A stretch of DNA of 10,135 nucleotides from Deltaproteobacteria bacterium RIFOXYA12_FULL_61_11 (GTDB lineage: Bacteria; Bdellovibrionota_F; JAHFAK01; YA12-FULL-61-11): positions 6,549 through 16,683 of the forward strand of contig MGSU01000134.1 of assembly GCA_001799195.1 (NCBI GenBank), written 5' to 3'. Under the pieces are notes generated by a model, which ran no database searches, was not told where the DNA came from, and saw nothing but the letters and a program-made list of their open reading frames with translations. The position numbers and the translations under genes were made by a program. Below are positions 1 through 9,630 of the stretch, piece after piece. The stretch's first letter is position 1, and each line of letters begins with the position of its first letter.

Positions 1-1359
1 AAAGATGATGACAACGAATGGGAACCGATCGACCTCAAGGCCCATGACTGCTTCACGGCCCTCGAGTCCAAGGTGTCCATCATAAAGGACTTTATCGCCG
101 ACAACAACACGACCAGCCTGGGTCGAGCCAAGACCGTCTCGGTCAATGTCCCTGCCAAACTGCGTGTGCGCGTGATCAATAACGGCACCGGTAACGCAAC
201 GGGGGTGGCGGTCCATGACGTGCTCTCCAGCGGCGACGGGACCAAGTACACAGCCAGCTCGTTCTCGACCGGAACCGCGAATGGCACGGACGGCTTCGAC
301 GCCACCATCGGGAACCTCGCCGCCGGCGCCACCACAACCCTCTTCTTCACTGTCACGGGCTCGGCTGACGGCAAGTATTGTGACACGGTGACCGTTACTG
401 CCACTTCAGGCGACATCGGCATCAGCACGGACAGCGCATGCTTGACCGTGGCCACTCCCAACCTCACGATCACCAAAACTGACGCGCCCGAAAGCGTCAT
501 CCCAGGCGCCACCTATGTTTCGACTATCGTCGTGAAAAATGACGGCAACGCCACGGCCACCAACGTGGTCATCAGCGATGTGCTGGGCCTCAATTCGGCT
601 GTCAACATGAGGGTCATTTATGTGAGCTCGAGCCTCAGCGGCGTGGGCGGCACTCTGGCCAGCAATACGGTCACGGCAAAAACGATGGACATCGCGGCCG
701 GCCAAACCGTGACCTTCACCGTCACCAGCCGCATTCCGCTTGGCGCCATCTCCGGCACTTACTGCGACAAGGCCACCGTCGCCAGCAGCAACACCCCCAC
801 CCGGGACGCTTCGGATTGCATCGAGGTGCCGGCGTTCTCAGCGGTTCAAACCCAGATGATCGACCTGCATGATCCTATAGCGGCTGGAGGCAATTTCAGT
901 TACTTCTCGACCATGTATGTGGAAAATCTCTCCAACGAGGGTGTGAACAAGAACACCATCAAGTTCAGCTTCGGCCTGAGCGATCCTAAGGACATCGGCA
1001 AGGCCGGTCTCTTCCGCGTCAACTCGACCAAGGTCTACCTCGACTCGGCTCCGGTGCGGGATCCCATCACCGGTCTCGTCGTCTCCGACGCGGCTAATGC
1101 CACTGCCGTGCTTCAAACAGCGAACAGCGACTACACGATCAGCAACGCGACCGCTGGTCTGCAAGTCATCACCATGACTCCGAGTGTCGCCTTGATGCCC
1201 GACACGGCGATCTATGTTCTGCATGAGGTGGCGGTCCCGAGTGCCACGCCGACCAACAAGATGTATACCTCGAGCTACATCTGGAACTCGGTTGGTTTGG
1301 GCGATACCTCGCATCTCTACCAAGCAAGCTCATCCGAACCCACGACCGTGCTCCCCTGA
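1..1359 (+). CDS. Secreted/surface protein with tandem DUF11 (Ig-like) domains, 5' partial
   Basis: The frame is open from base 1 with no start signal, so the gene begins upstream; the GTG at 73 is internal. The visible 452 residues hold two clear DUF11-type repeats. The first (about residues 35-150) has the hallmark VINNGTGNATGVAVHDVL; the second (about 153-275) has VVKNDGNATATNVVISDVL. Each ends with a strand starting YCD and a second Cys 15-17 residues later, which suggests one disulfide per domain. A further beta-rich domain (about 276-452) has no cysteine. Composition is Thr/Ser/Asn/Gly-rich with almost no Lys clusters, as in exported beta-sandwich proteins. DUF11 domains are known from very long cell-surface or secreted proteins, where they act as spacers or adhesive units. 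The role here (surface layer, adhesin or stalk) is inference. The C-terminus (TTVLP) shows no LPXTG or membrane anchor. The gene ends at a strong terminator. Confidence 0.8.
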   Translation, partial: KDDDNEWEPIDLKAHDCFTALESKVSIIKDFIADNNTTSLGRAKTVSVNVPAKLRVRVINNGTGNATGVAVHDVLSSGDGTKYTASSFSTGTANGTDGFDATIGNLAAGATTTLFFTVTGSADGKYCDTVTVTATSGDIGISTDSACLTVATPNLTITKTDAPESVIPGATYVSTIVVKNDGNATATNVVISDVLGLNSAVNMRVIYVSSSLSGVGGTLASNTVTAKTMDIAAGQTVTFTVTSRIPLGAISGTYCDKATVASSNTPTRDASDCIEVPAFSAVQTQMIDLHDPIAAGGNFSYFSTMYVENLSNEGVNKNTIKFSFGLSDPKDIGKAGLFRVNSTKVYLDSAPVRDPITGLVVSDAANATAVLQTANSDYTISNATAGLQVITMTPSVALMPDTAIYVLHEVAVPSATPTNKMYTSSYIWNSVGLGDTSHLYQASSSEPTTVLP

Positions 1360-1374
1360 AGAAATGGTCGTGTT

Positions 1375-1408
1375 CCCGCGGGAGTCTCACGACTCCCGCG
1401 GGTTTTTT
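1375..1408 (+). terminator. Rho-independent terminator
   Basis: Perfect 12-bp stem (cccgcgggagtc paired with gactcccgcggg), 4-base loop (tcac) and six T directly after it. It lies 15 bases past the stop codon of the DUF11 gene and separates that gene from the next one. Confidence 0.95.
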
Positions 1409-1418
1409 CCGGTTTAAT

Positions 1419-1546
1419 CCCACCTGAAGATGGCAGTGAAAACCAGGTGAACCGGCTCTCTACCGCCGGACAGGTGGGCTGCCCTCATGCTGGTGATCGC
1501 CGAAGGAGCAACGCGGCGACTCCTACCTTCAGACCTTTCTAGGAGT
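1419..1546 (+). promoter_or_regulatory. Structured 5' leader with mutually exclusive hairpins covering the RBS
   Basis: Between the terminator and the ATG at 1552, several arms pair well. CCCACCTG (1419-1426) pairs with CAGGTGGG (1471-1478) and encloses a CCGGC/GCCGG hairpin (1452-1469). TCGCCG (1497-1502) pairs with CGGCGA (1514-1519). ACTCCT (1519-1524) is complementary to AGGAGT (1541-1546), which contains the Shine-Dalgarno sequence of the next gene. The same CTCCT can instead pair with AGGAG at 1504-1508, so the two states exclude each other. This is the layout of an RBS-sequestering switch or protein-controlled leader. Part of it (1498-1511) matches the CGCCGAAGGAGCAA core known from glycine aptamers, but the rest of that aptamer is not convincing. 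No ligand is assigned. Confidence 0.4.
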
Positions 1547-1551
1547 ATGCT

Positions 1552-2124
1552 ATGAACTCGAGTTATTTCCTGGTCACTCTGCTCTTGTGCCTGATCTTCG
1601 CCACCTCTGCTGCCTTGGCAGCAGAAAAACCAAGTGCCCAGACGAGCGGGCAGGTGCCCAATTCCGACGGCTTTTCGCTGGGACTCGTCCTCGGTGATCC
1701 GACCGGGATCACGCTCCGCAGCGGACGAGGCTATCGCCGCGCAATCCAAGCGCACCTGGGCTTCAGCCCCTTCCCCGGCGATGCGATGTCGCTGATGGTG
1801 GATTGGACCTACGATGTCTGGGATTTCCTGGGTGGTACCTCTGACCTGCCGCTGTCGTTGCCGTTGTATCTCGGCGCGGGCGTCAAAGCGCAGTGGTTCA
1901 ACGGTCAGTATCAAACCTATGGCTATAACAAACACTACGATGATCCCAAGGATGCCAACTTCGGGCTGGGGGCGCGCGGACTTGTCGGTCTCCGTGCGTC
2001 CTTCCACGACGCTCCGTTTGACCTCTTCCTAGAACTCGCTCCGCTCAGCATTCTCATCATCGTGCCGAACCTCGGCATCGTGTATGATTTCGACGCAGCC
2101 ATCGGCGCACGCTATCGATTCTGA
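1552..2124 (+). CDS. Small outer-membrane beta-barrel protein
   Basis: A 190-residue protein with a clear Sec signal peptide (hydrophobic core at residues 6-22, likely cleavage after ALA at 21-23). The mature part alternates glycine/aromatic-rich strands: GLVLGDPTG near residue 42, LPLYLGAGVKAQWF near 103, and FLELAPLSILIIVPNLG near 162. It ends in ARYRF, the terminal Phe typical of BAM-assembled outer-membrane proteins. The GDPTGI motif, the FLELAP segment and the terminal IGARYRF resemble the small DUF3996-type barrels, from memory of that family. About 165 mature residues would fit an 8-stranded barrel. The start is fixed by AGGAG at 1541-1545, six bases before the ATG. The structured leader upstream could control translation. 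It appears monocistronic. Function beyond an outer-membrane barrel is not known. Confidence 0.75.
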   Translation: MNSSYFLVTLLLCLIFATSAALAAEKPSAQTSGQVPNSDGFSLGLVLGDPTGITLRSGRGYRRAIQAHLGFSPFPGDAMSLMVDWTYDVWDFLGGTSDLPLSLPLYLGAGVKAQWFNGQYQTYGYNKHYDDPKDANFGLGARGLVGLRASFHDAPFDLFLELAPLSILIIVPNLGIVYDFDAAIGARYRF

Positions 2125-2332
2125 GATGGAATACAACCCCCTCGGTCGGATTCTGTTTTCACCCAAGGCCCTTCCGACCATCTTCTCCATGCTGGTCAGG
2201 GTACCTTCGGGTCTTTCCCGCGGTAGGCAGGGATGAGCGTGAATTCCAATCATTTTGATTTCATGCTCCGCTGGTACTTCACCAGTACGAGTTCCAGGTA
2301 CAGTCCCTCGAGGAGGTCGTGTTCGAAACAGG

Positions 2333-2364
2333 GTTTCCCCTCTATCAAATTGAATGAGGGAAAC
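2333..2364 (+). repeat. Inverted repeat, possible activator-binding site
   Basis: GTTTCCCCTC (2333-2342) and GAGGGAAAC (2356-2364) are inverted copies apart from one extra C, separated by 13 A+T-rich bases. Its centre is about 120 bases upstream of the start expected from the sigma-54-like promoter. That is within the usual range for an enhancer-binding protein site. This role is inference; the repeat could also simply be a hairpin. Confidence 0.35.
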
Positions 2365-2440
2365 TCCATATTGATAGTAGTAGCTGCCATCGGTGGTCCA
2401 ATTGTTCGCATAACTGAATGTTTATTAAGCTATAGTGTAC

Positions 2441-2457
2441 TTGGCTCGAATGCTGCA
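2441..2457 (+). promoter_or_regulatory. Candidate sigma-54 (-24/-12) promoter
   Basis: TTGGCTCG-AATG-CTGCA matches the known consensus YTGGCACG-N4-TTGCW with one mismatch in each half. The invariant GG (2443-2444) and GC (2455-2456) are separated by exactly 10 bases, as required. The predicted start of transcription is near 2468, giving a leader of about 30 bases before the ATG at 2501. I could not find a good -35/-10 pair at standard spacing in the same stretch. Confidence 0.55.
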
Positions 2458-2500
2458 TGCATATAGCATGCATTCATCAAGGTAGTGAAAGGAGGAGCCA

Positions 2501-2779
2501 ATGAGCAAACCCGAGGTGCATATTGGAAAAATGGAAACCCAACTCAAACAATGGGGGGCAAAGCTGGATGAGTTTGTAACCAAAGCCGAAGGAGTCGGCG
2601 CTGAGGTCAAGGAGGATTACTGCAAGCAAATTGAATTCCTCAAGGCGAAACATAAGGTTGTACAAACAAAGCTCGATGAATTCAAAGTCGCCAGCGGCAA
2701 AGAATGGGAAACCTTTAAAACCGGGGTCGAGGATACCTGGAATGATCTTGAAGTTGCTTTTAAGAAACTGACCAAATAG
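2501..2779 (+). CDS. sll1863-type coiled-coil stress protein
   Basis: A 92-residue, highly charged all-helical protein without signal peptide or membrane segment, so probably cytoplasmic. Heptad-like spacing of Leu/Val/Phe runs from about residue 11 to 90, with a Trp-containing C-terminal motif EWETFKTGVEDTW (68-80). Composition and length fit the small proteins annotated as sll1863-family stress response proteins, which are often found beside CsbD and OmpA-type genes. Their biochemical role is not established. The start is set by AAAGGAGG (2488-2495) five bases before the ATG. It is the first gene after the sigma-54-like promoter and probably leads the operon. Residues 11-89 align without gaps to residues 68-146 of the lipoprotein at 5282-5755. 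Confidence 0.75.
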   Translation: MSKPEVHIGKMETQLKQWGAKLDEFVTKAEGVGAEVKEDYCKQIEFLKAKHKVVQTKLDEFKVASGKEWETFKTGVEDTWNDLEVAFKKLTK

Positions 2780-2797
2780 ACGGAGAAGCTGGAAAGT

Positions 2798-2953
2798 ATG
2801 CTGTGGACCATTGCGATCATTACGACTGCTGCTCTGGGTGCTTGGACTGCTCAGGTCCTGCACTCGAGATGGAGGTATCCCTATTTGGGTCCTTTTGGCA
2901 GTGCCCCTGTTCAACTCCGGATCCTCAGTGGCCCACCTCGCTCACAACGATGA
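2798..2953 (+). pseudogene. Frameshifted lmo0937-type small membrane protein
   Basis: The ATG at 2798 opens with MLWTIAII, the typical start of lmo0937-type (DUF5670) membrane peptides and nearly that of the intact copy at 5075. That frame then loses hydrophobicity and stops at 2953 after 51 codons. The +1 frame from about 2820 continues the expected protein: LLLWVLGLLRSCT, then GGI and VLLAV, matching the intact copy's VLWILGLITSFT, GGF and LLMLAV. Base-level comparison shows one extra nucleotide before the Trp codon of the second segment. After the shift the frame has no stop and runs into the next gene. It therefore looks like a decayed copy or a sequencing insertion. No slippery heptamer is apparent, so programmed shifting is unlikely. 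Confidence 0.6.
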
Positions 2954-2987
2954 ACCCATCCATAATTGTATTCAACTGGAGGATAAG

Positions 2988-3365
2988 ATGAGACATCTAA
3001 CTACATTCGGAATGCCTATGTTCATCATAGCCATTTCCATCGTCCTGGGGTGCACGAGCCCCTTGTTGCGCACCGAAGCCTCAACCTCGGGAATACGGGC
3101 TGCAGAAGAGGTTGGTGCGGCAGGCGTGCCGCAAGCCTCCCTGCACCTTCTCTTAGCCAAAGAAGAGTTGGAAAAGGCCATTGAGTTCTCCAAGAATGAT
3201 GAGAGGAAGAAGGCCGAGTCCATGTTGTTGCGGTCTGAAGTAGACGCTGAACTTGCTGTAGCCCTTTCCCGTGAGGATACGGAGAAAATCGAGGGTCGTG
3301 CAGCAGTTGCGCGCGTACGTCAGCTTCGGCAGGATAACAGCCCAACGCCAGTTAACCCACTGTGA
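2988..3365 (+). CDS. DUF4398-domain lipoprotein
   Basis: A 125-residue protein with an N-terminal hydrophobic stretch (residues 9-21) ending in the lipobox VLGC, so Cys22 is the likely lipidated residue. The mature part is helical with the DUF4398 pattern: AGVPQASLHLLLAKEELEKA, then KAESMLLRSEVDAELAVALSR, ending in a charged Arg/Gln helix. Asp is absent at +2 (Thr follows the Cys), so outer-membrane sorting by Lol is likely. The function of DUF4398 proteins is unknown; they often sit next to OmpA-like lipoproteins, as here. GGAGG at 2978-2982 lies five bases before the ATG and decides this start. The same frame is open back to 2811 only because it joins the broken gene upstream. The gap to the next gene is 34 bases, so co-transcription is likely. 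Confidence 0.8.
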   Translation: MRHLTTFGMPMFIIAISIVLGCTSPLLRTEASTSGIRAAEEVGAAGVPQASLHLLLAKEELEKAIEFSKNDERKKAESMLLRSEVDAELAVALSREDTEKIEGRAAVARVRQLRQDNSPTPVNPL

Positions 3366-3399
3366 ATTTTAACTTGTAATCGACAATGGAGAAGATCGT

Positions 3400-4329
3400 A
3401 TGAAAACGTATAGTATTTCGATCCTCGTTTGTGCGGCGTTTATCGCCGGTTGCGCTGCTCATGCTCCGCGGGAACTGGTCAATGCTCGAGAAGTCTATCG
3501 ACGCGCCAGCACGGGTCCAGCGGCACAGGTTGCACCGGCTGAACTGCATGTTGCAACCCAAGCACTCGATAAGGCAGAAAAATCTTTTAAAGAAGATCCT
3601 GATTCCTATGTGACTCGGGATCTCGCCTATATTGCACAACGCAGAGCGGAGATAGCGGAAGCGACCGCCTCTATTATCTTCGAGCAGAAGGGTAATACCC
3701 TTGCGAAGAAAGATTATCAAGAGATGCAGACCAAGATCGTAGAACAGACGAAACAAGACCTGACTCAAACCCGCACCGCACTCGCGGAATCGGAGCGCAG
3801 CGGTGAATCGTCGGCAGCGAAACTTTCCGTCGAGCAGGATGCACGTATTGCCTCGGATCAACGAGCCGCTACCGCCCAGACGGATCGGATTGCAGCAGAA
3901 AATCGTGCCCTTGCTGCTCAAGCAGCCTTGGCCAAGTTGGGTGAGGTCAAGAATGAACCTCGCGGCATAGTTGTTACCCTTTCAGGTAGTTTGCTCTTCG
4001 CATCGAATGTGACAACGTTATTGCCGGCAGCCATGGCCCGGCTTGACCAAGTAGCAGAGGTGTTGCTCAACAACAGCGAACGTCGTCTCATGATTGAAGG
4101 ACATACCGACTCCCAGGGTACGAACTCACACAACCTTCAATTATCTCAGGGCCGGGCAGATGCAGTTCGCAGCTATTTCATACAAAAGCATTACCGAGCT
4201 AATCTCATTCAAGCCCAGGGATTTGGGGAGACCCACCCCATCGCTGATAATTCCAGTGCCGAAGGTCGGGCGAATAACCGCCGCGTTGAGATTATCATTG
4301 AGCGTGATCCGACCGTTTCCAGTCAATGA
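3400..4329 (+). CDS. DUF4398-OmpA peptidoglycan-binding lipoprotein
   Basis: A 309-residue lipoprotein. The signal peptide ends in the lipobox IAGC (15-18). Residues about 23-115 form a DUF4398-like helical domain and about 115-195 an Ala/Gln/Glu-rich coiled coil. Residues about 200-305 are a C-terminal OmpA domain with EGHTDSQG, LSQGRA, GFGET and GRANNRRVEI. Asp237 (in HTD) and Arg252 (in LSQGRA) are 15 residues apart, as are the two diaminopimelate-contacting residues of OmpA domains, so non-covalent peptidoglycan binding is well supported. It should tether the outer membrane to the cell wall, the coiled coil acting as a spacer. GGAGAA at 3388-3393 precedes the ATG. The domain shared with its neighbour at 2988 suggests the two interact or arose by duplication. 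Confidence 0.9.
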   Translation: MKTYSISILVCAAFIAGCAAHAPRELVNAREVYRRASTGPAAQVAPAELHVATQALDKAEKSFKEDPDSYVTRDLAYIAQRRAEIAEATASIIFEQKGNTLAKKDYQEMQTKIVEQTKQDLTQTRTALAESERSGESSAAKLSVEQDARIASDQRAATAQTDRIAAENRALAAQAALAKLGEVKNEPRGIVVTLSGSLLFASNVTTLLPAAMARLDQVAEVLLNNSERRLMIEGHTDSQGTNSHNLQLSQGRADAVRSYFIQKHYRANLIQAQGFGETHPIADNSSAEGRANNRRVEIIIERDPTVSSQ

Positions 4330-4528
4330 CAGGACCTGCACGGAAGAAGGATTTTGAGAGCAATTCGCTTCAAGATCCATCCCCCCCCGGCAAGCGTAGC
4401 TCAAGCTGTGCCCTTGAGGAAATGGACCCACACTCTCACCCTGCAACCTAAGGAGGAGCATCCAATCTGAAAGTATCCAAGTAAACGCTTGCAACGAGAT
4501 GATAATGAACACCAAGAAGGAGAATTTC
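4330..4528 (+). other. Intergenic gap with an orphan Shine-Dalgarno sequence
   Basis: No gene is supported in these 199 bases. They contain an 8-base C-run (4381-4388), a short inverted repeat (CTCAAG/CTTGAG around 4400-4420) without T-run, and a very strong Shine-Dalgarno sequence AAGGAGGAGC near 4450-4459 followed by CCAATCTGA instead of a start codon. The same words precede the ATG at 2501 (GGAGGAGCCAATGA), so a lost start or gene remnant is possible. A separate RBS at 4517-4522 serves the next gene. Confidence 0.4.
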
Positions 4529-4786
4529 ATGAGCCGAGAGAAAGAAATGACGAACGAGACAACCCTTACCGAGAATGATCTTCCTACAAAGCAGGATCAG
4601 ACGAAAGAAGTAACCGCAGAGAAAAAAACGACCACCATGGTGAAGGACGAACCCTCGAAACAGGTTCACAAACACGTCGCTCCCCATGATAACAAGGCGA
4701 CAACCACGGAGAAGATCCCTCAACAAAAACCCGATCAAACAAAAAACGTCAATCCTAAACCTGATAAAAAGACCGCAAAATCATAA
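4529..4786 (+). CDS. Small disordered Lys/Thr-rich hydrophilic protein
   Basis: An 85-residue protein made almost only of Lys, Thr, Glu, Asp, Gln, Asn, Pro, Ser and Val. It has no Gly, Phe, Trp, Tyr or Cys and a single Ile, so it should be intrinsically disordered. There is no signal peptide. I do not recognise a family. The composition recalls hydrophilins and LEA-like protectants of desiccation and osmotic stress, but without a diagnostic repeat. AAGGAG at 4517-4522, six bases before the ATG at 4529, decides this start over an in-frame ATG at 4499 with no RBS. The gap to csbD is 11 bases, so the two are almost certainly co-transcribed. Low complexity makes orthologue searches unreliable. 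Confidence 0.65.
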   Translation: MSREKEMTNETTLTENDLPTKQDQTKEVTAEKKTTTMVKDEPSKQVHKHVAPHDNKATTTEKIPQQKPDQTKNVNPKPDKKTAKS

Positions 4787-4797
4787 AGAGGTGTTGT

Positions 4798-4989
4798 ATG
4801 AACAAGGATCAAGCAAAAGGTACCTGGGAGCAGATCAAGGGAAGAGCGAAAAAGGCCTGGGGCGAATTGACCGACGATGACCTCAAGAAGGCTGAAGGTT
4901 CCGTAGACAAGCTCTATGGGGTGATACAAGAGAAATTTGGCGATACCAAGGAAGCGATATTGGCGAAGTTGGACAAGCTACACCTGTAA
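4798..4989 (+). CDS. CsbD family stress protein
   Basis: A 63-residue CsbD-like protein covering the whole family length. It starts MNKDQAKGTWEQIKG, followed by KKAWGELTDDDL, a central KKAEG, and ends in a helix with KFGDTKEAILAKLD. CsbD proteins are small cytoplasmic four-helix proteins induced by general stress (sigma-B in Bacillus; osmotic and phosphate stress in proteobacteria); their molecular activity is unknown. AAGAGGTG at 4786-4793 precedes the ATG. The segment TWEQIKGRAKKAWGEL (residues 9-24) closely resembles TWENIKSGIKKSHSEL in the lipoprotein at 5282. Confidence 0.93.
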   Translation: MNKDQAKGTWEQIKGRAKKAWGELTDDDLKKAEGSVDKLYGVIQEKFGDTKEAILAKLDKLHL

Positions 4990-5010
4990 CATACAAAAAA
5001 AAGATCAGAA

Positions 5011-5048
5011 GGTCCGGGGGTAGCTGCTATGCGCAGAACCCTCGGCCC
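5011..5048 (+). promoter_or_regulatory. Strong intercistronic hairpin
   Basis: CCGGGGGT (5014-5021) pairs with ACCCTCGG (5038-5045) through eight pairs, one of them G-U. An inner CTGC/GCAG stem (5024-5027 with 5033-5036) and an outer GG/CC past one mismatch extend it. An A-tract precedes it, and no T-run follows on the + strand. It may stabilise or process the mRNA, or partly terminate after csbD. The eight-A run upstream reads as T-run on the minus strand, but nothing there needs terminating. Confidence 0.45.
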
Positions 5049-5074
5049 CTCAACTTACCAAAAAGGAGATGTGC

Positions 5075-5224
5075 ATGTTGTGGACAGTCGCGATTGTCTT
5101 CCTTGTGCTATGGATACTTGGTCTCATAACCTCATTCACCATGGGAGGCTTTATTCACCTGCTCTTGATGCTTGCAGTTGTCGCGGTCCTTGTTCGCATT
5201 ATCCAGGGACGCCGAATAGTTTGA
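5075..5224 (+). CDS. lmo0937-type small membrane protein
   Basis: A 49-residue, almost wholly hydrophobic protein. It begins MLWTVAIVFLVLWILGL, has the central turn SFTMGG and a second helix through VVAVLVRII, and ends in a basic QGRR tail. This is the layout of lmo0937-type (DUF5670) peptides: two short inner-membrane helices with the positive tail inside. Their function is unknown; they commonly accompany CsbD, Lia/Psp-like and other envelope-stress genes. AAAAGGAG at 5061-5068 precedes the ATG. A broken second copy lies at 2798. The next gene starts 57 bases later, with a TCGAGATCTCGA palindrome in the gap. Confidence 0.88.
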   Translation: MLWTVAIVFLVLWILGLITSFTMGGFIHLLLMLAVVAVLVRIIQGRRIV

Positions 5225-5281
5225 CTTCGAGATCTCGAGGACCTGAAGGGCAAAGAAAACCTGAACGAGAAAGGTAAGACC

Positions 5282-5755
5282 ATGAGATACATGTTATTCT
5301 TCATTCCCTTGCTCATCGCAACCGGCTTTGCGCTGAGCTGTACGACGACCAAAGAGCAAGCCGAGAAAAATGCCGCTGCCAGCACAGCGGTACAACTCAA
5401 AACAGCAAAAACGGAAACTGTCGAAGCGTTCAAAGCCACGCAAGACTATACTTTTTCGCAACGAGCAGATTTCGTTGCAAGGATGAAAACGGAACTGGCA
5501 GAAACCCAGGATAAGTTGCATCAGATCACGCTCAAAATTGAAGCCTCGAATGCTGCCACCAAGGCCGATGCCAAGGAAAAGCTCGAAGTGGTGCGCAGGA
5601 ATTATTCGCGGGCGAAACAGGAACTCGAGCAGGCTGAAAGCGCCAGCGAGACCACCTGGGAAAACATCAAAAGCGGCATTAAGAAGTCCCACAGTGAGTT
5701 GAAGGAATCCTTTGAGCATATGCGCCAATGGTTGAGTGACAAAATTGAACCCTGA
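5282..5755 (+). CDS. Coiled-coil lipoprotein with an sll1863-like body
   Basis: A 157-residue protein with signal peptide and the lipobox ALSC (Cys20 lipidated, followed by Thr). Residues 21-67 are an Ala/Thr/Lys/Gln-rich linker. Residues 68-146 align without gaps over 79 positions to the soluble protein at 2501 (20 identities by hand count), including the TWENIKSG motif (125-132). The mature protein is all-helical and highly charged, with no beta domain or cysteine besides the lipid anchor. It thus looks like a periplasm-facing, membrane-anchored version of an otherwise cytoplasmic stress protein. AAAGG at 5270-5274 sits seven bases before the ATG. It is the last gene of the low-G+C cassette; an imperfect hairpin (5759-5779) follows without T-run. 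Function unknown. Confidence 0.75.
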   Translation: MRYMLFFIPLLIATGFALSCTTTKEQAEKNAAASTAVQLKTAKTETVEAFKATQDYTFSQRADFVARMKTELAETQDKLHQITLKIEASNAATKADAKEKLEVVRRNYSRAKQELEQAESASETTWENIKSGIKKSHSELKESFEHMRQWLSDKIEP

Positions 5756-5829
5756 CCTGGGTTAGGGCGAAACCTACCCGAGGCCCCCCCCCACAACTGT
5801 TAGGTCCCACATTCCGCCGAACTCGGCTT

Positions 5830-5900
5830 GCATCCTCTTTGCGCTCGTGCCAGGATGCCTCGCGACGCTGGTGCGAGCATGACCACGAGGTCGTATGCTC
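5830..5900 (+). promoter_or_regulatory. Two consecutive hairpins in the leader of the next gene
   Basis: GCATCCT (5830-5836) pairs perfectly with AGGATGC (5852-5858) around a 15-base loop. GAGCATGAC (5875-5883) pairs with GTC plus ATGCTC (5890-5892 and 5895-5900) with a two-base bulge and 6-base loop. They lie 36 to 106 bases upstream of the ATG at 5936 and leave its RBS free. A regulatory leader or transcript-stabilising element is possible. No known riboswitch class is recognised. Confidence 0.35.
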
Positions 5901-5935
5901 CACGTGATGTCGGAAACCTAGAGGGAGGTACTATC

Positions 5936-6424
5936 ATGAAATCGCTCTTGATCGTGCTGTGCATGTTCGTGCTCGTCGGGGGCGTGTCGGCCGATGAGCA
6001 CGTCGGGCGCTTCGCGTGCAAAGACACCGTGATGCGTCAAAACAGCGGCGCCAAGATCGCCAGCAACGCCGCTCTGTACTTCCAAGTCTACCAGACCGAG
6101 GAAGGCCGGTTCCTGCTCAAGAACGTCCTCGGCCACGTTATGGTCGGCTATGTCTGGGATGGCACCATCGACAGCCGCTACTACGGCATCTTCAGCTTCG
6201 ACCAGCTCGCCGACAATCCCGCCTACAAACCGCAGAAATACGTCGGGGCTGCCCAGTACAAAGATTTCAATGCCGTGAAGACCAACGGGAACGACGGCGG
6301 CGGCATGAACGGAACCCTGGTCCTGGACAAGAAGTTCGACCAGAAGAAGTTCCATGCCCACTATATCTTCCAGGCTGGGGAGCACATGGGCGGCACCCTC
6401 GATTTCGAGTGCTTCGCGGACTGA
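5936..6424 (+). CDS. Small secreted protein of unknown function
   Basis: A 162-residue protein with a signal peptide (hydrophobic residues 4-16, cleavage likely after VSA at 17-19). The mature part of about 143 residues is rich in aromatic residues and glycine and probably all-beta. Exactly two cysteines remain, one near each end (FACKD at 28 and FECFAD at 159), well placed to join the first and last strands by a disulfide. Other visible features are VMVGYVWDGTIDSRYYG and a GNDGGGMNG turn. I recognise no family; a periplasmic or extracellular beta-barrel or lipocalin-like fold is only a guess. GGGAGGT (5923-5929) precedes this ATG, so the longer frame from 5828 is not the start. Its stop is 21 bases before the Maf-like gene, suggesting co-transcription. 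Confidence 0.7.
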   Translation: MKSLLIVLCMFVLVGGVSADEHVGRFACKDTVMRQNSGAKIASNAALYFQVYQTEEGRFLLKNVLGHVMVGYVWDGTIDSRYYGIFSFDQLADNPAYKPQKYVGAAQYKDFNAVKTNGNDGGGMNGTLVLDKKFDQKKFHAHYIFQAGEHMGGTLDFECFAD

Positions 6425-6445
6425 GCCCCACGCGCCGAGCTCGCC

Positions 6446-8287
6446 ATGCCGACCGACATCTTCTCCTCGAACCTCGCGGCGCTCGCCGGACGGGATCCCG
6501 AGTTGCACCGGCGGCTCTGCGCTGCCCCACCTGATCCTGCCTATATCGTCGAGCAGCGCGGGGAAGAGTCCTGCCTACTCCGTCGGGGCACCGGAGGAGA
6601 GGTCCTCCTCTATCGCACCGCCGCAGCCCAGGCCGACCTCGAGCGCAGCCTCGCCAACCCTAGCCCTCCTCCGCGCCTGGTGGTGTACTTCGGTCTCGGC
6701 CTTGGGGAGCACCTCGACCGGCTCTCTCGGCACGAGCACCCGGACCTCGAAGGTCACCTGGTCCTCGAGGGCGACCTTGAGGTGTTCCGACACTTCCTGG
6801 CCTCGGCCGACCGGCGGGACCTCCTGACCGACCCCCGGGTCCTCTTCTGTGTCGGGCTCAATGTCGAGGCGCTGCAGCAGGCGCTGGTCGCTTACCTGAC
6901 CCGCTCACCTCGGTACTATTACCTTTCTTGTCTGCGCAACGTGGTGCTCACAACCCTCGCAGCCACGGCCCCACGCTACTACTTCGAGGCCGCCGAGGCG
7001 TTGCGCAAGGCCAAGGAGCAGGTCCGGCTCAGCTTCGGCAACTCCAGCGAGGATTATTTCCTGGGGATGCGCAACCTCCTGACCAACATCCCGGTGGTAC
7101 GCAACAGCCCGACCAGCGCCCCTCTCTGGAACCAATTCCGGGGCGTCCCCGGGGTGATCGTGGCCTCGGGACCATCGTTGGACCTCGCCAAACCCCGGCT
7201 GGCGGAACTGTCGGACAGAGCCTTGGTGCTGTGCTGCGATTCGGCGCTCAAGCCCGCCCTCGAGACAGGTCTGCGCCCTCACGGGGTGGTTTCCCTCGAA
7301 CGGTACGCCGAACTCGCGGCCTTCTTCTCGGGCTTCGAGATACCGGAGGAGCTACCGCTCTTCTCTCTCGTCGTCCAAGATCCTTCCGTCCTGGCCGCCC
7401 ATCCAGGTCCGAAGGTCATTTCCTCTCCTCACCTGCGGTTCTCGTCCTGGCTGCTGCCCTGGGTTCCCTGCTTCTACACCGGTCCCACGGTCTCGACCCT
7501 CGCCCTGGCCCTCCTGGCGCGCTTCGGCTGCTCCCCGATCGCCATCATCGGCAATGACCTCGCCTATGATACTGCCAGCGGCCGCAGTCATCTTTCCGGC
7601 ATGCTCCTGGACAATGACGCCGATCTCCAAGACGAGATCGGCCCCTGCCATGACGAGCCGGGGAACAGCGGTGCTCCGGTGCGCACCAAGGCGTCCTGGG
7701 TGTATTTCCGCGACAGTTTCTCCTTCCTCGTCCGCGATTTGAACGTGCGGCTGCTCAACGTCATCCCGGCCAGTCACGGGTTGCGGCTGCCCGGTGCCGA
7801 ACGGCGAGACCTCGACGACCTGCTCGCGAACGACCTGGCCGCACCTCTCCCCGGTCTTCGCGAGCGACTCTCGAGCTACCTATCGCCCGAGGCCGCCGAG
7901 GAAACCGAGCGACGCGAAACCATCGGGGTGAAGCTTCGCGAGGGGGTTACCTATCTCCAGGGCCTCGACGGAGAACTCCGCGCCTTCCGCGCTCGCCTGG
8001 AGTCGGGCTCCGTCGCCAAGATCCAGGAACTCGAACGAGCCGCCACGGGGTTGATCGACGGGAGCCCTCAGTTCCAAGACCTCCTGGCCGACCTGATCGC
8101 CCCGTTCCATCTCGACATCTTCAACCGCTATTATGCCATCCCCGGCCAGGAACATGGCAATTTCGATCGCAAGGTCGAGCTGTTGAAGTCGTGGTCCGAG
8201 CAACTGGGAAGCTGGGCCGGACGGCTGGCCGAACTCCTGGCTGCTGGAGCCGATCGATCGTCACCACCCCGTGGAGGTCAGGTATGA
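6446..8287 (+). CDS. Maf/DUF115 motility-associated glycosyltransferase
   Basis: A 613-residue protein with the architecture of motility accessory factors (MAF_flag10/DUF115, MptE-like). An N-terminal domain holds YFGLGLGEHL (81-90) and LVLEGDLEVF (105-114). The core has VIVASGPSLD (237-246), CCDSALKPAL (263-272), VVSLERY (281-287), GPTVSTLAL (346-354) and IGNDLAY with GRSH (368-382). A helical C-terminal part begins after LLNVIPASHGLRLPGAE. Maf proteins transfer nonulosonic sugars such as pseudaminic or legionaminic acid to Ser/Thr of flagellin in the cytoplasm; the substrate here is not known and no flagellin gene is in view. The ATG is the first start after an in-frame stop, the TGA of the preceding gene, so the start is secure although its RBS is weak. 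Confidence 0.85.
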   Translation: MPTDIFSSNLAALAGRDPELHRRLCAAPPDPAYIVEQRGEESCLLRRGTGGEVLLYRTAAAQADLERSLANPSPPPRLVVYFGLGLGEHLDRLSRHEHPDLEGHLVLEGDLEVFRHFLASADRRDLLTDPRVLFCVGLNVEALQQALVAYLTRSPRYYYLSCLRNVVLTTLAATAPRYYFEAAEALRKAKEQVRLSFGNSSEDYFLGMRNLLTNIPVVRNSPTSAPLWNQFRGVPGVIVASGPSLDLAKPRLAELSDRALVLCCDSALKPALETGLRPHGVVSLERYAELAAFFSGFEIPEELPLFSLVVQDPSVLAAHPGPKVISSPHLRFSSWLLPWVPCFYTGPTVSTLALALLARFGCSPIAIIGNDLAYDTASGRSHLSGMLLDNDADLQDEIGPCHDEPGNSGAPVRTKASWVYFRDSFSFLVRDLNVRLLNVIPASHGLRLPGAERRDLDDLLANDLAAPLPGLRERLSSYLSPEAAEETERRETIGVKLREGVTYLQGLDGELRAFRARLESGSVAKIQELERAATGLIDGSPQFQDLLADLIAPFHLDIFNRYYAIPGQEHGNFDRKVELLKSWSEQLGSWAGRLAELLAAGADRSSPPRGGQV

Positions 8288-9630
8288 ACGTTGCGCTCGA
8301 TTACACGCGTTGTCTGGAGGTGCCCCACGGCGGGCTGTTCTTGACCGAGGCCGACCTCCGGCGGCTGGTCCCCACCTTGGCCGACTGCCTGCGCCGCCTG
8401 CGCGAAGGCGAAGGCGACCTGTGTGACCAGGCCGTACTCATGACAGGCTGGCAGGACGAACCCGGCAGGCAACTACCGAAGGTTGAGGACTACCGCCGCC
8501 GTCTGGCCCCTCTCCGCGAGGTTGACCACGTCTTTATCGTGGGTATTGGCGGTTCCTACCTGGGACCGCGCGCCCTGTACGAGGCCCTGGGCGGGAACAC
8601 CGGACCCGAGCTGCTCTTCCTCGGGTACGATGTTGATCCGCAGTATGCCCGGACCTGCCTGGAACGGGCCCGGGGCAAGGTCGGCTGCGTGGTCATCTCC
8701 AAGTCCGGGACCACGGTAGAGCCGGCCATGGCCTTCAGGTACGTCCGCGCTTTGATCCACGAACGCATGGGTTCCTCGGCCCGGAAGTACATCAAGGCGA
8801 TCACCGGAGCCAAGGGCAGCGTGCTGCGGCGCATCGCCGAGGCCGAGGGTTACGACGTCTTCGACATTCCCGAGGATATCGGCGGACGCTTCTCGGTGAT
8901 GACGCCGGTCGGAGTGGTCCCGGGTCTGGTGGCCAGCCTACCGATGGAAGAATACCTCGAGGGCGCCTTGGCGATGAAGCGTTCCGCCGACTTGCTCGAA
9001 CCCTTGTGCAACCCGGCGGCTATGCTCGCAGCCTTGCGTTACCTGTTCTGGGAGCGCGGAGCAGTGGCCGAGTACCAGGTCTGCTCCTGTCAGCGGCTGG
9101 AGAGCCACTTGCAGTGGGCGGTGCAACTCCAGGCAGAATCCGAGGGCCACTACGGCCACGGAGTCCACGTGCTCGGCGCGTTGTTCCCGCGCGATCTGCA
9201 TTCGGTCGGGCAGCTCCTGCAAGAAGGGCCCCGCAATCTCTACGAGGTGGCCACGGTGGTGCGCAACCAGGGAACCGCCATGCCGCTGGCGAGGACCGGC
9301 GGAGACGATGGACTCGATGGTTTTGTCGAGCGGGTCGGAGACCTCGGGCGCTTCTCCGACATGGTCGTGACCGGAGCGCTCAACGCCCACTTCGCCGGGG
9401 GTGCGCCGAGCTCGACCCTCGAACTGGACACCCTCGACGCAGCCCATCTCGGCGCGTTGCACTATCTCCTGTTCAAGTCCACGGCCCTGATGGGGTTGCT
9501 CCTACGGCACAACCCCTTCGTCCAACCGGGCGTCAAGGCCTGGAAAGACGCCTTGCACGCCGTCGCAGAGGGACAACACGGCCCGGGCGAAACCGGAGGA
9601 GAACGCCATGTCCTACGCTGCGCTGGTTGA
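8284..9630 (+). CDS. pgi: Glucose-6-phosphate isomerase
   Basis: A 448-residue protein, the size of the short bacterial (Bacillus-type) isomerase, interconverting glucose 6-phosphate and fructose 6-phosphate (EC 5.3.1.9) in the cytoplasm. Phosphate-binding SIS motifs are GIGGSYLGPRAL (87-98) and SKSGTTVEP (139-147). PGI signature 1 appears as DIGGRFSVMTPVG (198-210). Expected catalytic residues are present: Glu285 in AESEG, His306 in DLHSVGQ and Lys421. Signature 2 is unusual: NPFVQPGVKAWK has Val for Asp/Asn and Lys418 for the usual Glu. GGAGG at 8273-8277 lies six bases before the ATG, which overlaps the preceding stop as ATGA, so translation is coupled and a GTG further upstream is not the start. 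Its 3' end overlaps the next gene by 23 bases. Confidence 0.93.
   Translation: MNVALDYTRCLEVPHGGLFLTEADLRRLVPTLADCLRRLREGEGDLCDQAVLMTGWQDEPGRQLPKVEDYRRRLAPLREVDHVFIVGIGGSYLGPRALYEALGGNTGPELLFLGYDVDPQYARTCLERARGKVGCVVISKSGTTVEPAMAFRYVRALIHERMGSSARKYIKAITGAKGSVLRRIAEAEGYDVFDIPEDIGGRFSVMTPVGVVPGLVASLPMEEYLEGALAMKRSADLLEPLCNPAAMLAALRYLFWERGAVAEYQVCSCQRLESHLQWAVQLQAESEGHYGHGVHVLGALFPRDLHSVGQLLQEGPRNLYEVATVVRNQGTAMPLARTGGDDGLDGFVERVGDLGRFSDMVVTGALNAHFAGGAPSSTLELDTLDAAHLGALHYLLFKSTALMGLLLRHNPFVQPGVKAWKDALHAVAEGQHGPGETGGERHVLRCAG

Follow-up and report, generated by a model that had tools for sequence, protein, structure and literature searches.

General stress regulons under sigma-B in Listeria and Bacillus include proteins of the CsbD, lmo0937, and YflT families. 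In the PrsK-PrsR regulon, which covers PEP-CTERM and exopolysaccharide functions, sigma-54 promoters (TGGCAC...CTGCTT) are accompanied by a predicted upstream enhancer (PMC9850573). Here, we describe a cassette of small genes at positions 2501 to 5755 of a 10,135-nucleotide stretch of DNA (the window; G000:C134:6549-16683) from Deltaproteobacteria bacterium RIFOXYA12_FULL_61_11. On sequence evidence, it is probable that this cassette belongs to a regulon for envelope and general stress that depends on sigma-54 and is run by an activator with XylR_N and V4R domains. Our search of the literature returned no description of the cassette and none of a link between CsbD and sigma-54. The genome that carries the window is designated G000, and other compared genomes and fetched loci are given G and L numbers.

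The cassette matches the row of genes that had been described in the original prediction, and profile searches agreed with the family names given there, with the small DUF4398 protein falling just below the Pfam cut-off. All eight of the predicted small, co-directional genes are present on the + strand. However, seven are intact and one, the first lmo0937-type gene, is frameshifted and decayed (Table 1).

Control by sigma-54, which had also been predicted, was borne out at the sequence level across lineages by a recurring -24/-12 box and a phased upstream element. The -24/-12 form found in the window also lies upstream of cassettes in G051, G542, and G581 to G583, as well as upstream of two further sll1863 loci on the same contig. 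The motif TGGC-N-CG(A/G)A-NN-CTGC(A/T) precedes the cassettes of the window, G051, and L038 to L040, together with the two sll1863 loci, which are in L005 and outside the window. The region has the sequence features of a sigma-54 promoter: a -24 TGGC and a -12 TGC at the usual spacing, plus an activator site upstream of them. In five genomes with full cassettes, the pattern TGGCNCGRANNCTGCW was enriched (10, 12, and 9 sites in G581 to G583, 5 in G051, and 6 in G000) over its reversed control (1, 1, 3, 0, and 2 sites, respectively). A sigma-54 promoter ahead of the cassette is thus very likely. A scan with a loose sigma-54 pattern gave results close to chance.

Aligned upstream regions yielded an element with the consensus TCGAATTGAAGGA-N8/9-TTCATYTTGATTGA, which begins ~97 bp before the -24 box. 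We searched for this element with a matrix trained on promoters of Myxococcota metagenome-assembled genomes (MAGs) only (G581 to G583). The top-scoring site of the whole window, on both strands, was the candidate element ahead of the cassette, at the same spacing as elsewhere, and the six best matches in 43.6 kb of G000 all fell within sigma-54 promoter regions. Scores were low (1.6 to 6.4 bits) for the three promoters of this contig, and the two upstream loci of the contig matched better in inverted orientation. Promoters of G051, G542, and G377 scored 24 to 26 bits, and 0 of 300 shuffles scored as high. Across all fetched loci, the element was paired with a sigma-54 box at 41 sites in a search that admitted gaps of 44 to 71 bp. 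These gaps were concentrated at 59 to 63 bp and 49 to 52 bp, classes that are one DNA turn apart, which suggests a helically phased distance (the P value for phasing in nontraining genomes is post hoc). The loci at which the sigma-54 pattern and the upstream element were first sighted also served to define them, and the more independent cases are G051, G542, G377, and G000:C341.

To compare gene orders, we built profiles from the window genes and ran them on the fetched loci. We abbreviate cytoplasmic sll1863 as sC, the sll1863 lipoprotein as sL, small DUF4398 as D, DUF4398-OmpA as DO, lmo0937 as L, and CsbD as C. From 5' to 3', the window reads sC, broken L, D, DO, a hydrophilic gene, C, L, sL. 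In G051, which belongs to another phylum-level group, D, DO, C, L, and sL follow one another within 2.3 kb. The Myxococcales MAG fen_1127 (L040) has sC, L, D, DO, sL, and the same order without lmo0937 is found in fen_1125 (L038) and fen_1123 (L039). Other arrangements are D, DO and, after ~4 kb, OmpA, DO, L, sL, sC (G669); DO (partial match), sC, L, sL (G574); sL, sC, L, sC, sL (G577); L, D, DO (G542); L, weak C, D, DO (G497); and D, DO and, ~3 kb further, L, C, L (G456). Of these, G669, G574, and G577 carry two to four of the types. Unrelated lineages therefore carry three to five of the families per 2 to 3 kb in shuffled order, and at least five families lie within 5 kb in two lineages other than that of the window. 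As had been anticipated, linkage in unrelated genomes far exceeded chance: among Myxococcota, sll1863 and lmo0937 genes less than 5 kb apart formed 7 pairs in 3 genomes, where ~0.1 would be expected, and cassettes are spread across phyla. A small DUF4398 protein is encoded in 76 of 195 Myxococcota genomes, and DO adjoins D in every such locus scanned. The strong form is rare, with matches in 3 of 386 diverse genomes, one of them weak. When genomes were scanned for the small DUF4398 protein with weak patterns, only four loci came up.

The genes behind the sites in G581 to G583, which are Myxococcota MAGs from fen, extend beyond the cassette itself. They include sll1863-lmo0937 pairs, full cassettes, and CsbD with a DUF3309-like membrane protein, along with an Hsp20 protein, pirin, a WrbA-like flavodoxin, a YflT-domain stress protein, Ser/Thr kinases, and a WcaJ-type exopolysaccharide transferase. 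Pirin was seen behind a regulon promoter in G581 (L191 2665-3396) and next to the G051 cassette (L036 13951-14784); in G000, a pirin-like open reading frame (ORF), recognized by eye, is close to the gene for the activator (L215 3675-4721).

Proteins that bear the GAFTGA motif and are encoded near the sites share the architecture XylR_N-V4R-sigma-54 activator-HTH_8. G000 encodes one XylR_N protein (G000:C21:15508-17196), which has all four domains of XylR and DmpR, although its V4R match (25.4 bits) is below the cut-off of 31. Its full-length identity to orthologues is 77% in G377, 73% in G581 and G582, 71% in G051, 69% in G456, 65% in G669, and 63% in G368, compared with 43% for a paralogue in G581. 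The recognition helix, G(S/T/P)ATL(Y/H)RKLK, is largely conserved among the orthologues. The activator gene adjoins the element in G581, G582, G583, and G377, and it is near cassette genes in G456, G669, and G368. Furthermore, among the 386 diverse genomes, both of those with a strong small DUF4398 protein were among the four with a strong activator orthologue (P = 8e-5). This protein is the likely activator of the cassette promoter. The sigma-54 regulon could be real and its upstream element read by a different enhancer-binding protein, since G000 has at least one other sigma-54 activator (L184) and Myxococcota carry many. We consider this unlikely, as the same orthologue group recurs beside the element in four genomes and co-occurs with the strong DUF4398 form.

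What the activator might sense bears on a second alternative, in which the regulon answers stress from aromatics or solvents: an XylR/DmpR-like sensor would detect aromatics, and the cassette would protect the membrane. The domain architecture is that of DmpR, MopR, and PoxR, and the titles of the four named carrier MAGs give fen as their source, a habitat that is probably rich in phenolics. The four zinc ligands (Cys, Glu, Cys, Cys) are also conserved relative to DmpR (PMC7264223). In contrast, all six aligned activators have Leu at the position of DmpR Trp128, and the His100 position is variable: Tyr in G000, His in G051, G581, and G582, Gln in G456, and Pro in G669. The G000 copy thus has neither of the residues, His100 and Trp128, that characterize the phenol-responsive subgroup (DmpR, MopR, and PoxR), and a DmpR-like phenol sensor was rejected on these grounds. 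The ligand is probably something other than phenol sensed in the DmpR manner. No aromatic-degradation enzyme was recognized among the genes downstream of the sites. We therefore regard an aromatic stress response as doubtful.

Several observations weigh against the proposed regulon. In G000, the activator gene is on a contig other than that of the cassette. The window's upstream element scores 2.1 bits, a value reached by 27 of 1,000 shuffles of the intergenic region. The promoter pattern also occurs at two G000 sites, on C87 and C262, both without the upstream element, and one good element with a sigma-54 site (L185 6638, - strand; G000:C341:8622) has no obvious downstream gene. Transcription from this last site would run into the 3' end of a WcaJ-like sugar transferase gene that lies in convergent orientation, and the site perhaps reflects a small RNA or a misassembly. 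Finally, the families are linked but the upstream element is missing in G574 and G577, and in G669 and G368 the activator and cassette genes come with no clear pairing of element and sigma-54 site, so the families and the activator are not strictly tied. The families are all small and common, and linked sets without the element, such as those of G574 and G577, would suit a chance cluster of stress genes without shared control. However, the recurrence across phyla, the phased promoter architecture, and the excess of linked pairs make chance exceedingly improbable.

The row had been read as an envelope system for osmotic stress that arose through duplication in mirror order. The mirrored order does exist in the window genome, and G577 has a second case (L104, G577:C84), where the upstream element is absent. 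In addition, a very large ORF near the G051 cassette resembles, by eye, a gene for cyclic glucan synthase; such an enzyme would be in keeping with osmotic stress. However, most other cassettes are unmirrored and gene orders vary. For each of the two sll1863 types and each of the two DUF4398 types, separate orthologues exist across phyla. The duplicated-looking copies are therefore old paralogues, and mirror duplication was rejected on this orthology. The two DUF4398 genes are indeed adjacent, but as an old pair and not as recent duplicates. The candidate regulator belongs with XylR and DmpR, a type that senses small molecules, and this affiliation gives no hint of an osmosensor. Overall, we find the osmotic account very unlikely.

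A tandem duplication was seen upstream on the same contig, in L005, which overlaps window positions 1 to 1359. Its units (1109-4501 and 5088-7907), ~83% identical over most of their length, contain an sll1863 gene with a basic tail and a giant PEGA/DUF11 lipoprotein gene. The second sll1863 copy consists of the tail only, and each copy has its own sigma-54-type promoter. At the contig end, a partial ORF (L005 3-221, - strand) resembles by eye a REP-associated (Y1-type) transposase, a possible agent of the duplications. An N gap immediately precedes the window start.

In the regulon that we propose, the XylR_N-V4R protein would sense a small ligand, bind the element ~97 bp ahead of the -24 box, and drive sigma-54 RNA polymerase at the cassette promoter. 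We infer this binding, as well as co-transcription, induction, and the role of each protein. Among the products of the operon, DUF4398-OmpA would tether the outer membrane to peptidoglycan, with the other DUF4398 lipoprotein as its partner. The helical sll1863 lipoprotein would lie in the periplasm, the short lmo0937 protein would sit in the inner membrane, and the soluble sll1863 and CsbD proteins would act in the cytoplasm. Judging by their families, these products may reinforce the outer membrane, periplasm, inner membrane, and cytoplasm simultaneously. The recurrence of the same gene families in distantly related bacteria behind one type of sigma-54 switch points to a little-studied shared stress program. 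A broader proposition, for which we see the chances as evenly balanced, is that several Gram-negative phyla have, through lateral spread, a sigma-54 equivalent of the general stress response directed by sigma-B or RpoS. Dispersed cassettes of envelope tethers, sll1863, lmo0937, CsbD, Hsp20, YflT, kinases, and exopolysaccharide initiation would then all answer to a single XylR-type activator that senses a ligand. If so, the widespread but mechanistically blank families sll1863, lmo0937, DUF4398, and CsbD would gain a shared regulator and context. It would also become possible to test directly whether sigma-54 governs general stress by way of a ligand-sensing activator, with one regulator, a 33-bp element, and a short list of targets.

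Table 1. Coordinates of the cassette genes and of the predicted control elements ahead of them, numbered from the first letter of the window
Feature	Position	Strand	Details
Candidate enhancer (upstream activating) element TCAAATTGAATGAGGGAAACTCCATATTGATAG	2345..2377	+	Starts 97 bp before the -24 element
Sigma-54-type -24/-12 element TGGCTCGAATGCTGCA	2442..2457	+	59 bp before first gene; shuffle P = 0.005
sll1863-family stress protein, cytoplasmic, without signal peptide	2501..2779	+	NF052504, 84.6 bits (cut-off 35)
Decayed, frameshifted lmo0937/DUF5670 gene	2798..2915	+	Two frames match lmo0937 in order
Small DUF4398 lipoprotein	2988..3365	+	PF14346, 23.9 bits (under cut-off 27.9)
DUF4398-coiled coil-OmpA lipoprotein	3400..4329	+	PF14346, 57.1 bits; PF00691, 78.3 bits
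Hydrophilic 85-residue protein, probably disordered, no family	4529..4786	+	Grand average of hydropathy, -1.67
CsbD-family protein	4798..4989	+	PF05532, 72.7 bits (cut-off 40)
lmo0937/DUF5670 membrane protein, two hydrophobic segments	5075..5224	+	NF033488, 56 bits; PF18919, 50 bits
sll1863-domain lipoprotein	5282..5755	+	NF052504, 44.3 bits (cut-off 35); lipobox

Orthologues of the first sll1863 gene also stand first in the cassettes of L038 to L040. The gene that follows it gave no family match when read as a single ORF and so does not qualify as an intact lmo0937. Instead, MLWTIAII and LLLWVLGLLRSCTRDGGIPIWVLLAV are encoded in two successive frames; with its lmo0937 pieces split in this way, the gene, listed as broken in the original prediction, is a frameshifted, decayed lmo0937. 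Because L040 has an intact lmo0937 at the matching position, the second lmo0937 gene of the window probably made the first dispensable. That second gene encodes ~50 residues with 76% identity to the G051 copy; its ORF opens at 5069 (NF033488 cut-off, 30), and the ribosome-binding site makes the start in Table 1 more likely. On the same grounds, the hydrophilic gene probably starts at 4529 and not at 4499. The hydrophilic protein had no counterpart in the other cassettes compared, while the CsbD protein is 71% identical to the G051 cassette copy.

A lipobox cysteine is present in each of the three lipoproteins. The small DUF4398 lipoprotein is well conserved in its own right, with 55 to 67% identity to orthologues in L007 and L038 to L041. 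In OmpA-like proteins that bind peptidoglycan, an Asp/Arg pair has a recognized role. The corresponding Asp237 and Arg252 of the TD...R motif in the DUF4398-OmpA lipoprotein are invariant in ten homologues, and the protein is predicted to tether the outer membrane to peptidoglycan. Its structure model was too poor for use (predicted local distance difference test [pLDDT], 65.5). Homologues of the sll1863 lipoprotein share 30 to 44% full-length identity and a C-terminal RxWxSxKIxP motif. The model of this protein (pLDDT, 83.5) has four long helices and predicts a helical bundle; a fold search with it returned generic helical bundles only (best E = 0.2).

The row has a G+C content of 0.50, compared with 0.63 for the rest of the window, and 0.49 to 0.64 versus 0.71 to 0.86 at third codon positions. 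These values fit lateral arrival without proving it. A plasmid origin was rejected, as tblastn searches with the sll1863 lipoprotein and small DUF4398 protein found no match in 72,556 plasmids. No terminator-like site was seen on the + strand inside the row, whose widest intergenic gap is 200 bp (4329-4529), and this fits a single operon; the sigma-70 promoter and terminator scans themselves gave results at chance level. Rfam and tRNA scans of the contig returned no matches. G000 is a draft of 4.64 Mb in 342 contigs (~87% complete), with 1 same-class relative among the first 59 genomes drawn. Elsewhere in the window, a predicted outer-membrane barrel protein (1552-2124) is distantly similar (26% identity) to a protein encoded behind a regulon promoter in G582 (L188 913-1593); no regulon-type promoter was seen before the window gene. 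An MptE-like/Maf-type protein gene followed by one for phosphoglucose isomerase (6446-9630) is unrelated to the cassette.

Comparison with described systems places the cassette close to several of them. Like Pal/YiaD/LptF-type OmpA lipoproteins, DUF4398-OmpA has a lipobox and a C-terminal OmpA domain with conserved Asp and Arg, but it adds an N-terminal DUF4398 and a coiled coil and scores far below the named equivalog cut-offs. The PrsK-PrsR regulon likewise combines sigma-54 promoters and a predicted upstream enhancer with envelope or matrix targets, but it uses a two-component regulator in place of an XylR_N-V4R sensor, and its target genes differ. XylR, DmpR, MopR, and PoxR share the domain order and zinc ligands of the candidate activator and an upstream site ~100 to 200 bp from the promoter. 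In contrast, the activator described here lacks the phenol-positioning Trp and is variable at the His, and its putative targets are stress and envelope genes and not those of aromatic degradation. Sigma-B regulons have the CsbD, lmo0937, and YflT families in common with the proposed regulon, which differs in relying on sigma-54 with an activator, in belonging to Gram-negative lineages, and in including outer-membrane lipoproteins.

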